The translations under genes were made by a program, and so were the position numbers. 64,000 nucleotides of DNA from Ruminococcaceae bacterium R-25 (GTDB lineage Bacteria; Bacillota; Clostridia; Saccharofermentanales; Saccharofermentanaceae): the NCBI GenBank assembly GCA_003149065.1, contig QGFZ01000001.1:1488001-1552000 (forward strand), given 5' to 3'. The notes under the pieces were generated by a model, which ran no database searches, had not been told where the DNA came from, and was given only the letters and a program-made list of their open reading frames with translations. Each line of letters begins with the position of its first letter. Position 1 is the first letter of the stretch. Positions 9,288 through 36,309 of the stretch are shown here, piece after piece.

Positions 9288-9388
9288 GTGACGAAATCAG
9301 CCTAAAGCGTCACCAATTCCGTCACTTTACCCCCAAAATGACGAAATGTGTGACGAATTCAGCTGAAACCGTCACCATTTTCGTCACT
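9288..9388. repeat. Two imperfect direct copies of a 39-bp palindrome
   Basis: Copies at 9288-9326 and 9350-9388, starting 62 bases apart, agree at about 33 of 39 positions. Each begins GTGACGAA and ends with CGTCACT, so each can fold on itself, and each carries a third internal CGTCACC half-site. A further TGACGAAATG half-site lies between the copies. Confidence 0.75.
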
Positions 9389-23596: not shown

Positions 23597-23626
23597 AAAG
23601 AGGCTGCATTCATTGCAGCCTCTTTT
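23597..23626 (+). terminator. Rho-independent terminator after mscL
   Basis: A perfect 12-bp stem, AAAGAGGCTGCA (23597-23608) with TGCAGCCTCTTT (23614-23625), loop of 5, then T-rich DNA. Read in the other direction it also has a T-run and may serve the convergent lipoprotein gene. Confidence 0.85.
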
Positions 23627-23647
23627 ATTTGGGACGTTAATCTAAAG

Positions 23648-23844
23648 TGTATCGAAAACCCTGATAATTTATGTGTTTTCGATACAACGCTGCCTGGGTT
23701 TGTATCGAAAAGTGTGTGTTTGTCGAGGTTTTCGATACAATTTGTCTATTTTTGTATCGAAACGGGTGTATTTTTCGAGGTTTTCGATACATCATCGCCG
23801 TGTGTTGTATCGAAACAGGTATATTTTTCGAGGTTTTCGATACA
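23648..23844. repeat. Array 1: four 39-bp palindromic repeats with about 52.5-bp period
   Basis: Units at 23648-23686, 23701-23739, 23753-23791 and 23806-23844, each exactly 39 bp, spacers 14, 13 and 14. Every unit starts TGTATCGAAA and ends TTTTCGATACA. The first unit has a distinct interior; the other three share an interior ending in TCGAGG. A fifth, decayed left half (GGTATCGAA) follows near 23856. The array fills the space between mscL and the convergent lipoprotein gene. A second array is at 30260. Confidence 0.92.
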
Positions 23845-23875
23845 ATTTGCTTTTTGGTATCGAACTAGGCAACTA

Positions 23876-24274
23876 TCATTTGAATATTATCTCGTAACTG
23901 TAGTTTGGTCCGTCATCCATATGTGATAAGGGATCGAGTGTCATGGGAACTCCGTAAGTTCTCGTCATAGTACCGGTTCTGGTAATTACCTCTACGCCTT
24001 CTTCTGTGATCTCTCCTATCCTCATTACCCATGCGTTTTCGGCTGCACCCTTGTCTTTGGCTATTTCAAAATCGCTTCCGAAAAAACCTCCGGTGATGAC
24101 ATCACCTTCTTTAATATTCCCTACCTCATATTCCCTGTATCCGGAAAAGTCCTCACCTGATATTCCAAAGCCGCTTCTGTATTCTTTTACAAGCATCTTT
24201 ACTCTTGTTTTACTGCATCCGCATAAAGATAATGTCACCGCAAATAATAAGATCACCGCTAAAAGTCTTTTCAT
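23876..24274 (-). CDS. Small lipoprotein of unknown function
   Basis: 132 residues. Signal peptide MKRLLAVILLFAVTLSLCGC with a lipobox ending at Cys20, so the protein is expected outside the membrane, lipid-anchored. The mature part (DFSGYREYEVGNIKEGDVITGGFFG...) has no motif I recognise. GAGGAG precedes ATG 24274; the frame runs upstream to 24325, but that extension would bury the signal peptide. Confidence 0.75.
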   Translation of the reverse strand: MKRLLAVILLFAVTLSLCGCSKTRVKMLVKEYRSGFGISGEDFSGYREYEVGNIKEGDVITGGFFGSDFEIAKDKGAAENAWVMRIGEITEEGVEVITRTGTMTRTYGVPMTLDPLSHMDDGPNYSYEIIFK

Positions 24275-30143: not shown

Positions 30144-30194
30144 AGTGTAAATTCAGTGCGCGAAACGGGTGTCTTTACGCACTGTTTTTACACT
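30144..30194. repeat. Long inverted repeat upstream of array 2
   Basis: A 17-base left arm (30144-30160) and right arm (30178-30194) match at 15 of 17 positions when reverse-complemented; cores are CAGTGCG and CGCACTG. The 17-base loop contains CGAAACGGGTGT, which also occurs inside the third 39-bp unit of array 1 (from 23758), so it may be a relative of the array units. Confidence 0.7.
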
Positions 30195-30259: not shown

Positions 30260-30455
30260 TGTATCGAAAATCCCTGTTTTTAATGTATTTTCGATACAAG
30301 CAAGTTCACTCATGTATCGAAAACTCCTGCTTTTTATGTATTTTCGATACAAAAACGCGAATTTGTATCGAAACGGGGGCTTTTTTCGAGGTTTTCGATA
30401 CACCAAAGTGTGATGCTGTATCGAAAACGGTTTGCTTTTCGAGGTTTTCGATACA
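30260..30455. repeat. Array 2: four 39-bp palindromic repeats
   Basis: Units at 30260-30298, 30313-30351, 30364-30402 and 30417-30455, each 39 bp, start-to-start distances 53, 51 and 53. Arms are the same as array 1 (TGTATCGAAA and TTTTCGATACA). The first two units have a type A interior (CCTG...TTTATGTA), the last two the type B interior with TCGAGG. A decayed fifth unit follows from about 30468. Orientation within the window is the same as array 1. Confidence 0.92.
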
Positions 30456-33438: not shown

Positions 33439-36309
33439 TTAGCTTAATACCTGGCAAGCAGAGATAGCCATGGTCTTTCCGTCCTTGTCGACAACCTTGA
33501 TAATGTAGTAGCCGGGCTTGATATCCTTGTCTAATTCGAAGGAGATAACATATTTATCGCCTTCTTTTCTTACTTTCGACTTGCCGGTCTTAACAGCGCT
33601 GGAAAATTCTTTCTGCGAGAACATATTGTCTTCGCTGTAGTAATAACCAAACGTGAATTCATCGTCACAAGCATCTTTTACGTAGAATTCCAGAGAGATA
33701 TTCTTTGTATCCTTGTAGTAAACGGAGTCCGACTTGATCTTATTGTTTGAAGATACCCAATCACATTCAACACCACTGAAGATGGAAGTTGAATCATAAG
33801 TAACTACTGAGCCGATCATAGTTGAAGCATCGGTCGTACCCTTATCGTACTGGCTGTCCTTGCCTCTCTTTACATCGATCTCAGAAGCAGGCTTACCTTC
33901 TCTGAGCTGTACTCTGTAATCGTTGTTGTAAACGTCATAGATATCGAATCCTACATAACCCTTAACGTCGGAGTAATCAACGTTGGAATATCTGTAGAGG
34001 CTTACGGCTTCAGAATAAGTTACGGACTTGCCCTTGCCGAGCTTTTCGTAATTCATTGCCTTTGTTGCCGTGTCATAGTATTCGCGTACGAAAACGATCT
34101 TGTCTGTATCCGTAAACTGCATACCCTGGTTTGCATCGAACTTGTCTTCGAGGATATCTGCCCAGTAGTAACCGATGATCTCGCCGTTAGGATTGTCAGA
34201 GCTTGATGCGATAACAACATATGCTGTCTTGTCGTTGATCAATGCTTCTGCTGCAAGATACTTCTTCCATGAACCGTCATCTGCCTTTTCGTACTTGAGG
34301 CATTCGCAGGTTACGAATCCGAAGTCAGTGAAGAATACCCACTTTGTCGGGTTTTCGAGAATGATGTAGTTATTCTCGTCGACATCATACTGGTAGTCGG
34401 AACCGAGATAGTAGATCTTGCTCTTATCATCAGGGAAAACATAAGCGAGCGTTACCTTAACGTCACGGATGATCTTCCAGTCGTCTTCAGTGAGCTTGAT
34501 AGCTTCGTAGCCGCCCATGCTTACAACATTATTGGAAATGTCATAGACATTACCGGACTTGATATCATTAGCGTCAGCCGGCTTGATATACCAATCGCCT
34601 GCAGCGCTTGTCTTATTAAGGATATAGAGTTCCTTACTTACGAACTTATCGTAGAAGAGAATTGTTGAATCGTGGTAACCAAGAGTCTTGAATGTGATTC
34701 TTGCCTCGTTGTAATACTCGGGATAGAGGTAAGGTGCATATGTTGTCATGCCGTGAGCATATGTATAGGAGTTATTGCTCTCGGTGAAAACGCAGTTACC
34801 TACTTCGTTAACGAGCTTACTTGCTGCCTGCTCGATATCCTTGTCACCGCAGTTGATGTACTTGCTCGCAAGTGTCGTAAGGTCAACAGAGTCTGTGGAT
34901 TCGAAAGAACCGCATGCTTCTCTGAGCTGAACGTATTCAGCAAATCCGTTGCCGTCGAAAACTCGCTTGTCCAATGCGGCAATGAATTTCTCGTAAGCTT
35001 CGAGCAAGTTGTTTATGTTGCTTGTATCGATAGCAGACATACATGTATCGATACCATAGTATCCGGTAGCATTCTGCGTAGCTTCGATATTCTTCATGTA
35101 ATCTCTTACGATGAACTCGCTGTAGTCTTTTGCAGAACCGTTGAAATCGTCTTTGCCGATGAAATTTAAGAAGTTGGTGTAGTTGATACCTACATCATAG
35201 TAAGCGCTTCCCCATGTAGGGCTCTCAGCTGCAACGATGTATTCTGTATAAGGATCCAATGCCTTTGCTACTTCCAAAGAACCCATGAGACATGCGTTAA
35301 AGATAACTGTCTCAAACTGGATATCTGCATTCTTGATAGCATCAGCGATCTCGATCTCTGTGAGCTTACCGTCGTGGAGCTCATCAGAACCGAATCCCAA
35401 AGGAACTCCGCCGCCGTGATCCCAGAGAACGAGGATATAGTGCTCAGCAGGATAATTCTCTTTTGCGAACTTTACGAAGTCCTGCAGAGACTGCTGCTCA
35501 ACCATGCTTACATCACCTAAATTGGCGAGTTCTTTAATATTTCCGTTCTGGATAGCGAAACGCTGGCACTGGCCGTCCTGCATGTAGGAGTTCTGGAAAT
35601 CCTTGCATCCACCCGTCTGAAGAACGATATTTACGTTCTTGCTGGGTGTTGCAGCGAGCATTTCCTTAACGTCTGCAGAAAGGTTCGAACCCTTTGACTC
35701 AAGGTCTGTTCCGATCGCATAGATCATAACTGTTCTTGCGGGAAGTTCAGCTACGGACTCTGTAGGGTCAGTCTCAGTCTCTACTACCTTTGTTTTCTTT
35801 GTATGTGTAGGTTCAGGAATCGCACTTCTTACTGCGAAAACGATACCTACGATGATGCCTACGAGAAGCACAACTCCTGCTGCGGAAAGACCGATGATAA
35901 GTCCGACCTTGCTCTTCTTTTTCTTCGGGGGCTCAGCAGTTGTCTGAGCTGCCGGAGCAGGCGCTTCAGGCATCGGTGTTCCGATAGGACCAAAAGCAGA
36001 TTCTGTCTGTGCAGGTGCGGGTGCTGCAGGAGCAGGAGCCGGTGCGCTTGCAGGTGCTGCAGAAATAGGTGCGGAAACCGGAGCAGGAGCAGGAGCAGGT
36101 GCAGGTGCGGATGCAGGTGCAACAGGTGCAACAGGTGCAGGTGCAGCCTCAACCGGAGCAGGTGCTGCGGGTGCGGGCGCAGCCTCAACGGGTGCAGGTG
36201 CTACAGGTGCAGGAGCTGCCTGCTGCCAGAGTGCAGAAACATCTGTTCCGCAACCGCCGCAGAATTTCTGATTGTTTACAAGTTCTTTTCCACAATTAGG
36301 ACAATGCAT
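33439..36309 (-). CDS. Membrane-anchored zinc-ribbon / clostripain-family (C11) peptidase
   Basis: 956 residues. An N-terminal zinc ribbon (CPNCG and CGGCG, Cys3, 6, 17, 20) is followed by about 100 residues of Ala/Pro repeats, one membrane segment near 135-160, and a clostripain-type domain from about 190. Catalytic His298 lies in WDHGGG and Cys340 in FNACLMG. The remaining 500 residues carry beta-rich sequence of unknown role. The layout puts the zinc ribbon in the cytoplasm and the protease outside. GAGAGG precedes ATG 36309. Partner genes are unclear; ilvB follows directly. Confidence 0.85.
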   Translation of the reverse strand: MHCPNCGKELVNNQKFCGGCGTDVSALWQQAAPAPVAPAPVEAAPAPAAPAPVEAAPAPVAPVAPASAPAPAPAPAPVSAPISAAPASAPAPAPAAPAPAQTESAFGPIGTPMPEAPAPAAQTTAEPPKKKKSKVGLIIGLSAAGVVLLVGIIVGIVFAVRSAIPEPTHTKKTKVVETETDPTESVAELPARTVMIYAIGTDLESKGSNLSADVKEMLAATPSKNVNIVLQTGGCKDFQNSYMQDGQCQRFAIQNGNIKELANLGDVSMVEQQSLQDFVKFAKENYPAEHYILVLWDHGGGVPLGFGSDELHDGKLTEIEIADAIKNADIQFETVIFNACLMGSLEVAKALDPYTEYIVAAESPTWGSAYYDVGINYTNFLNFIGKDDFNGSAKDYSEFIVRDYMKNIEATQNATGYYGIDTCMSAIDTSNINNLLEAYEKFIAALDKRVFDGNGFAEYVQLREACGSFESTDSVDLTTLASKYINCGDKDIEQAASKLVNEVGNCVFTESNNSYTYAHGMTTYAPYLYPEYYNEARITFKTLGYHDSTILFYDKFVSKELYILNKTSAAGDWYIKPADANDIKSGNVYDISNNVVSMGGYEAIKLTEDDWKIIRDVKVTLAYVFPDDKSKIYYLGSDYQYDVDENNYIILENPTKWVFFTDFGFVTCECLKYEKADDGSWKKYLAAEALINDKTAYVVIASSSDNPNGEIIGYYWADILEDKFDANQGMQFTDTDKIVFVREYYDTATKAMNYEKLGKGKSVTYSEAVSLYRYSNVDYSDVKGYVGFDIYDVYNNDYRVQLREGKPASEIDVKRGKDSQYDKGTTDASTMIGSVVTYDSTSIFSGVECDWVSSNNKIKSDSVYYKDTKNISLEFYVKDACDDEFTFGYYYSEDNMFSQKEFSSAVKTGKSKVRKEGDKYVISFELDKDIKPGYYIIKVVDKDGKTMAISACQVLS

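Follow-up and report, generated by a model that had tools for sequence, protein, structure and literature searches.

The window (the whole 64-kb stretch of DNA that was analysed, from the host genome G000) contains two arrays of palindromic units with the arms TGTATCGAAA / TTTCGATACA. One of them, W1 (23648-23844), follows a terminator-like hairpin 3' of an MscL-like gene and has unit starts 53, 52 and 53 bp apart; the other, W2 (30260-30455), has unit starts at 0, 53, 104 and 157. A sequence-only reading had described four 39-bp palindromes at 53/52/53 bp and a decayed fifth half-unit behind them, and both descriptions hold (unit starts 23648, 23701, 23753 and 23806; half-site GGTATCGAAC at 23856-23865). 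The features of the window are as follows.

9288..9325, unstranded: unit 1 of an array with GTGACGAA arms and 62-bp spacing
9350..9387, unstranded: unit 2 of the array with GTGACGAA arms
23600..23630, + strand: terminator-like hairpin and T-run, 3' of the MscL-like gene and just before W1 (by eye)
~23642..23880, unstranded: DNA missing at the orthologous G019 site (edges uncertain by several bases)
23648..23686, unstranded: W1 palindromic unit 1, 39 bp
23701..23739, unstranded: W1 palindromic unit 2, 39 bp
23753..23791, unstranded: W1 palindromic unit 3, 39 bp
23806..23844, unstranded: W1 palindromic unit 4, 39 bp
23856..23865, + strand: decayed fifth half-site GGTATCGAAC of W1
30145..30193, unstranded: palindrome next to W2 with a different type of arms (resembling those 5' of L298, by eye)
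30260..30298, unstranded: W2 unit 1, arms as in W1
30313..30351, unstranded: W2 unit 2
30364..30402, unstranded: W2 unit 3
30417..30455, unstranded: W2 unit 4

Allowing up to one mismatch, the window has 22 copies of the arm 10-mer where 5.2 are expected (none of 100 shuffles reaches 22), and its 16 exact copies all lie inside W1 or W2. The position held by the half-site in W1 is occupied by a shorter fifth unit, of about 36-37 bp, in L009, L015 (twice) and L018. Elsewhere in the window, TGTATCGATA is present as two direct repeats 21 bp apart (35023-35032 and 35044-35053).

Across G000 the two strands give 43 and 38 exact matches to the arm pattern (a perfect palindrome counts on both), and the reversed control has none. 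The sites with TGTATCGAAA arms comprise 15 complete four-unit arrays, the broken array L007 and the lone unit L016. In ten of these arrays, which share one register, the arms have a mean pairwise identity of 97.4% (minimum 93.8%), with 13 of 800 arm letters off consensus, whereas the interiors average 53.0% (minimum 32.9%); the 12-bp linker is 74% identical and the 14-bp linkers 42%. Linker lengths are 14/12/14 in 14 of the 15 complete arrays, W1 (14/13/14) being the exception, and the central base is A or T in all 58 of the 39-bp units (one unit from G019). One array, L021, repeats a mismatched arm in three of its four units. Because the arms are kept at 97% against 53% for the interiors, with linkers nearly always 14/12/14, the TGTATCGAAA arms and the array geometry are under constraint; drift after duplication is disfavoured because it would not spare the arms alone. 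The earlier proposal of selection rather than drift is thereby supported, and checked genome-wide the spacing is regular and the arms are conserved, where ordinary decayed repeats had been expected to show random spacing and unconserved arms. Among the matches listed, the array-only copies (orphan arrays) are mostly intergenic behind 3' ends and not at other promoters, and several sit just behind a terminator. No clean target-site duplication was seen at them. A promoter regulon for TGTATCGAAA was considered and dropped, in that none of 12 isolated half-sites fetched from among the matches listed belongs to a unit; by eye, these half-sites seem to be coding.

In G019, the relative that matches best, the W1 site is flanked by the same neighbours (at 93% and 80% identity), but these are 10 bp apart, compared with about 255 bp in G000; by sequence comparison, this sister species is without the W1 insertion. 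Among 59 genomes searched (G000 included), exact units occur in G000 and G019 only, with just one in G019, which places the TGTATCGAAA arrays in the G000 lineage. When the species genome collection was scanned, 12 stretches with one unit each came up, one of them the G019 record (RUG11004); the remaining 11 may be chance matches or terminator hairpins. The lone TGTATCGAAA unit (L016, G000:C2:328287; L020, G019:C8) edges a block of about 530 bp that is common to the two species and has different gene surroundings in each.

An array detector, defined as a search for neighbouring palindromes with the same arms, found 46 clusters in 1327 kb (many of these loci having been fetched for their arrays) versus one in a first-order Markov copy. 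In stretches not chosen for arrays it found six clusters in 200 kb of G000, sampled away from known TGTATCGAAA arrays (so that the absence of TGTATCGAAA there is no finding); four in 800 kb from seven other species of the genus, one of them probably coding; none in 200 kb from G019, G102 and G101; and none in 272 kb from other genera of the order. The commonest same-orientation spacing is 50-53 bp in 54 of 91 clusters, 61-64 bp in 13 and 71-74 bp in 23, and the sole outlier is the broken array L007 at 89 bp. Thus 90 of 91 clusters fall near 52, 62 or 73 bp, about 5, 6 and 7 turns of B-DNA at 10.5 bp, in a set that is not independent (17 clusters carry TGTATCGAAA arms and many others ACGKACTA arms, and arrays were the reason for fetching many of the loci) and that leaves out duplicate loci and L118, a GC-rich, probably coding repeat at 87 bp that would fall outside the classes. 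A single spacing class would look like any period; here all three classes fall on one lattice, two classes occur within single families or arrays (L245, L286 and L303), and an ACGKACTA array common to G000 and G019 has spacings of both 52 and 74 bp. A period analysis with shifted-register palindromes (36 bp) found nothing significant, the uniform null being reached in 409 of 2000. Spacing near 5, 6 and 7 turns favours a DNA-level arrangement with units on the same face, and the suggestion made from the window alone, that equal sites would face the same side of the helix, is strengthened by these (non-independent) clusters.

Gene and array are associated. The arrays L216 (G000) and L071 (G007), which belong to different families, each lie directly upstream of homologous genes for an unnamed protein of about 265 residues with a C-terminal PD-(D/E)XK-like nuclease domain. 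Searched with the G007 protein, all 25 genomes of the genus, hand-chosen and many of them because arrays were present, gave 1-13 matches each (weak partial matches included), and four genomes from other genera gave none. The detector places an array at most 600 bp upstream of 27 of 50 partner genes (24 of 47 without L265, L287 and L288, whose arrays were already known when the genes were gathered); the remaining 133 kb of the 50 loci contain a single cluster (L310, downstream). Between arrays and start codons lie 16-305 bp, with 5 of the 27 arrays within 43 bp. Of the 23 genes without an array by the detector, four (L270, L273, L275 and L295) show one by eye, and in G000 the detector reports an array at six of eight matches inspected (of nine). 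The sequence-only reading had proposed looking for a co-occurring DNA-binding gene; a co-occurring gene was indeed identified, but the feature that marks it best is a nuclease-like domain. The parent of the TGTATCGAAA arms, G000:C1:928810-929598, lies outside the window, and its start codon is 35 bp from a TGTATCGAAA array at 929637-929832. The parent array, L013, is among the most diverged copies and so is not the direct template of recent ones. A full-length homologue on the human faecal contig MT839528.1 has no array there by the detector, indicating that the protein can exist without one.

Two further observations concern the gene loci. At L310 (G082:C45, 491-586), similar paired arrays stand in the same orientation both upstream and downstream of the nuclease-like gene. 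In most of L265-L275, and in L216 and L295, there is a second conserved palindrome, approximately TGAGACNNGTCTCA followed by AGTCTCAA, between array and gene (in L216 it falls beyond the array), which suggests a shared regulator.

Nine residues of the protein are invariant in 49 members (S159, E162, A166, E179, P191, D192, H208, G210 and Y217) and E207 is nearly so; the metal-site motif is atypical, with E207, H208 and G210 kept and lysine absent from its usual place. The proteins encoded beside L216 and L071 (P0001 and P0002) have no Pfam or NCBIfam match above the curated cut-off, and over the 49 members the best Pfam E-value is 0.003, with scattered matches. The C-terminus of the PADLOC model PDC-S68 matches the nuclease domain (E 1.5e-25), as does HEAT_CxxC_PDDEXK (9e-7). 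In a predicted structure (mean pLDDT 93, pTM 0.68) the C-terminal part resembles I-Bth0305I (3r3p_B; Z 8.7, 2.7 A over 90), TnsA (1t0f_A; Z 8.6, 3.2 A over 114) and Bax1 (8gy8_A; Z 8.1, 2.9 A over 99), where Z of 8-9 is barely above background and 7-8 is common by chance; Foldseek alone returned nothing at E 0.001 or below. The highest-scoring structure match (Z 9.0) falls on the N-terminal part and is of coiled-coil type; within the whole-protein model this part has coiled-coil-like matches only. Plasmid matches are partial and fall mostly in proteins annotated as ATPases or helicases. In L324 (MT839248.1) a long frame with helicase-like motifs has the nuclease domain at its end, which agrees with the PDC-S68 match. 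A phage origin of the arms was considered and dropped: viral contigs gave no carrier of three arm types, a search of viral contigs with the L216 protein found none, and a profile search found eight, matching the C-terminal part only and none with an array by the detector.

The arms co-vary with the protein. For 30 proteins whose arms were written down and registered by hand (leaving out L266 and L282, where arrays are present, and second loci of one gene), arm similarity correlates with protein identity: r is 0.40 over the entire protein, 0.47 over residues 1-138 and 0.30 over the remainder, and none of 2000 permutations reaches the observed r in any of the three comparisons. A set of 11 loci in 11 species, orthologous by their potD neighbour, allows the change to be followed at one place. 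All 11 have an array between the potD end and the gene (8 by the detector and 3 by eye), and by eye a promoter-like stretch lies downstream of the array. In nine of them (L270 and L275, of unclear register, were left out), arm complementarity is 0.93 within units, where across species it is 0.63 (a result reached by none of 5000 label shuffles), and two units of one array have like arms (0.91 versus 0.62); the arms therefore changed in place, staying palindromic and alike within each array.

Arrays of other arm types extend the class. A second dispersed family, ACGKACTA, was found in 13 of 83 genomes, with most copies in G019 and G000; the reversed-pattern control also hits 18 genomes, with 1-2 matches apiece, so that one hit by itself says little. 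Its arrays often have four units at 73/74 bp, and the family has a parent locus in both G000 and G019. Two G019 loci, C4 and C21, have a nearly identical block of about 330 bp in common. In C21 this block begins at the Shine-Dalgarno-like stretch of the nuclease gene, takes in the array and ends about 56 bp past it; the C4 copy has the array without a nuclease gene among its listed frames. In other copy pairs the common block begins at or near a terminator-like hairpin (by eye). For the G000 arm types GCCGTATTTT, CTGAAATC, TTCCAGAAA and GTGACGAA, the last present in the window, no parent gene was found (8 of 9 G000 gene matches inspected). Units with TGTATCTGAAAC arms occur in G084, G032, G073 and G007, with interiors alike in several; in G084 they are followed by pairs with arms such as TGTATAATTATTG, TGTGTAATTTT and TGTGCAATTGTTGG and linkers like AAAACGCGATTTT. 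Arrays with unrelated arms stand behind mscL, behind argG and between prmA and hisS in other species, and the mscL-site arrays of G008 and G070 are parent loci with an adjoining nuclease-like gene. The notion of one arm type per species was given up for lineage- and locus-specific arms.

Composite arrangements were also seen. In the G084 mosaics L068, L073, L075 and L077, units that differ in arm type are combined behind terminator-like hairpins, and one of their pair types resembles the arms of the potD-linked parent of the same genome (L268). L297 (G000:C3:76703) and L298 (C2:413003) make up a distant subfamily, in which the arms are composite (outer plus inner) and TGTCGG repeats lie close to where the gene begins; their arm types recur at L019:5850 and at 30145-30193 of the window (by eye).

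The many gene-plus-array pairs of these related bacteria, each with its own palindrome, point to an undescribed two-part genetic system, and we consider it probable, by a modest degree, that W1 is an orphan copy of the recognition array of such a system, a predicted place of binding, cleavage or mobilisation by the partner protein. The parent locus would consist of at least two palindromes of about 35-45 bp at near whole-turn spacing, directly upstream of a gene of about 265 residues whose product combines an N-terminal helical part with the C-terminal PD-(D/E)XK-like nuclease domain. The N-terminal part, presumably oligomeric, would read the arms on one DNA face, so that proteins bound to adjacent units would lie on one side of the helix and could assemble; the nuclease domain, or host repair that follows its activity, may then lead to array-only DNA being copied into other intergenic sites. 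Orphan arrays would stay bound, and may keep their arms because the protein still occupies them. A broader form of this reading, which we regard as tentative and put at rather less than an even chance, is that members of the genus run up to about a dozen parallel DNA-addressing channels, in each of which a paralog uses its own palindromic code on helically phased multi-site platforms, located at its own gene and, in some cases, also at numerous intergenic positions, the codes being replaced at a locus in a coordinated, palindrome-preserving way in step with the protein. The role of these platforms may be their own copying, the marking of the chromosome, or defence.

Four other explanations have some of the evidence on their side. 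The proteins could be DNA-binding autoregulators, with the arrays as operators of their own genes and the orphans as passive operators or titration sites spread by ordinary recombination; the short distances to the start codons and the way arms track the protein would suit this. We nevertheless think it unlikely, given that the orphan arrays listed lie mostly behind 3' ends and not at other promoters, that the isolated half-sites gave no unit, that the nuclease core is conserved and that the promoter-like stretch of the potD-linked loci is downstream of the array. Less likely again is that the arrays are BIME-like boundary or supercoiling elements between transcription units, to which the gene is a hitch-hiker: the recurrence of unrelated-arm arrays at the same intergenic places (mscL, argG, prmA-hisS), several behind terminators, and a helical spacing that suggests DNA architecture speak for such a role, which would however require neither arm identity between distant copies nor arm-protein co-variation, and the two mscL-site arrays that are parent loci have the gene beside them.

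To about the same low degree we entertain defence or self-marking, in which a nuclease held or calibrated by the host arrays acts on array-less DNA. The many diversified paralogs per genome and the matches of the nuclease domain to PADLOC defence-candidate models are in keeping with this, but PDC-S68 is itself no more than a candidate and the viral contig searches found no phage link. The sequence-only reading had left protein binding and an ordered RNA hairpin series side by side. A hairpin series in untranslated RNA would explain why changed arms stay complementary; the RNA half of that proposal is weakened by spacing classes near whole turns of B-DNA, and several arrays stand behind terminators, L021 repeats its mismatched arm, and a known Rfam RNA was dropped since none reaches the gathering score in the 64-kb window. 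We judge it very improbable.

If the orphan-array reading of W1 is right, these bacteria would have a palindrome system similar to REPs but operated by a protein that is not related to the known REP transposases. Its many paralog-arm pairs would be a natural experiment in joint change of a protein and its DNA code, in which the reading domain can be tested by swaps, and if the protein cuts DNA at the arrays, the family would also be a diversified set of site readers.

Searches of an open-access library listed no nuclease-linked palindromic array system, and several known systems share some of the parts. In type III toxin-antitoxin systems (ToxIN) a repeat array stands directly upstream of a nuclease gene; those repeats are direct RNA repeats, whereas the present units are palindromic and helically spaced, with dispersed orphan arrays. 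By sequence the nuclease domain is like PDC-S68 and HEAT_CxxC_PDDEXK, but the match is to the last part of these proteins, the former being much longer and the latter differently built. The C-terminal fold is like the catalytic domains of TnsA (Tn7) and I-Bth0305I, although the fold scores are marginal and there is no whole-protein similarity. BIMEs, described in a passage of one report as mosaics of regularly spaced palindromic units and linkers (PMC2817692), are matched in their regular units and linkers; the present arrays differ in having arms unrelated between families, a linked nuclease-like gene and a strict array geometry.

In outline the proposed system works like REP-RAYT. Passages of two reports describe REPs and REPINs as short dispersed extragenic palindromes, in several families per genome, near a dedicated DNA-processing gene (PMC3116915, PMC3733652), and the present palindromes are likewise multi-copy, extragenic and near a dedicated gene. 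By the Y1 transposase test the system is not a member: PF01797 was found in none of six genomes (G000, G019, G084, G073, G032 and G007), with 5 of 14 control genomes positive, and RAYT-driven REPs were dropped on this ground. By eye, no GTAG/CGTC end tag is present in TGTATCGAAA or ACGKACTA units, but some other arms such as GACCTACAAA, AACCTACGGA, AACTACCGAC and TGTGTAGTTT have CTAC or GTAG within the paired arm. The partner is a PD-(D/E)XK-like protein unrelated to REP transposases, and, unlike in REP-RAYT, the palindromes form multi-unit arrays, with four units in the two best-studied families and spacing near 5, 6 or 7 turns. One of the two large REP super-families is, in a passage of one of these reports, apparently without a dedicated transposase (PMC3733652), so that a further type of partner protein would be relevant to that gap.
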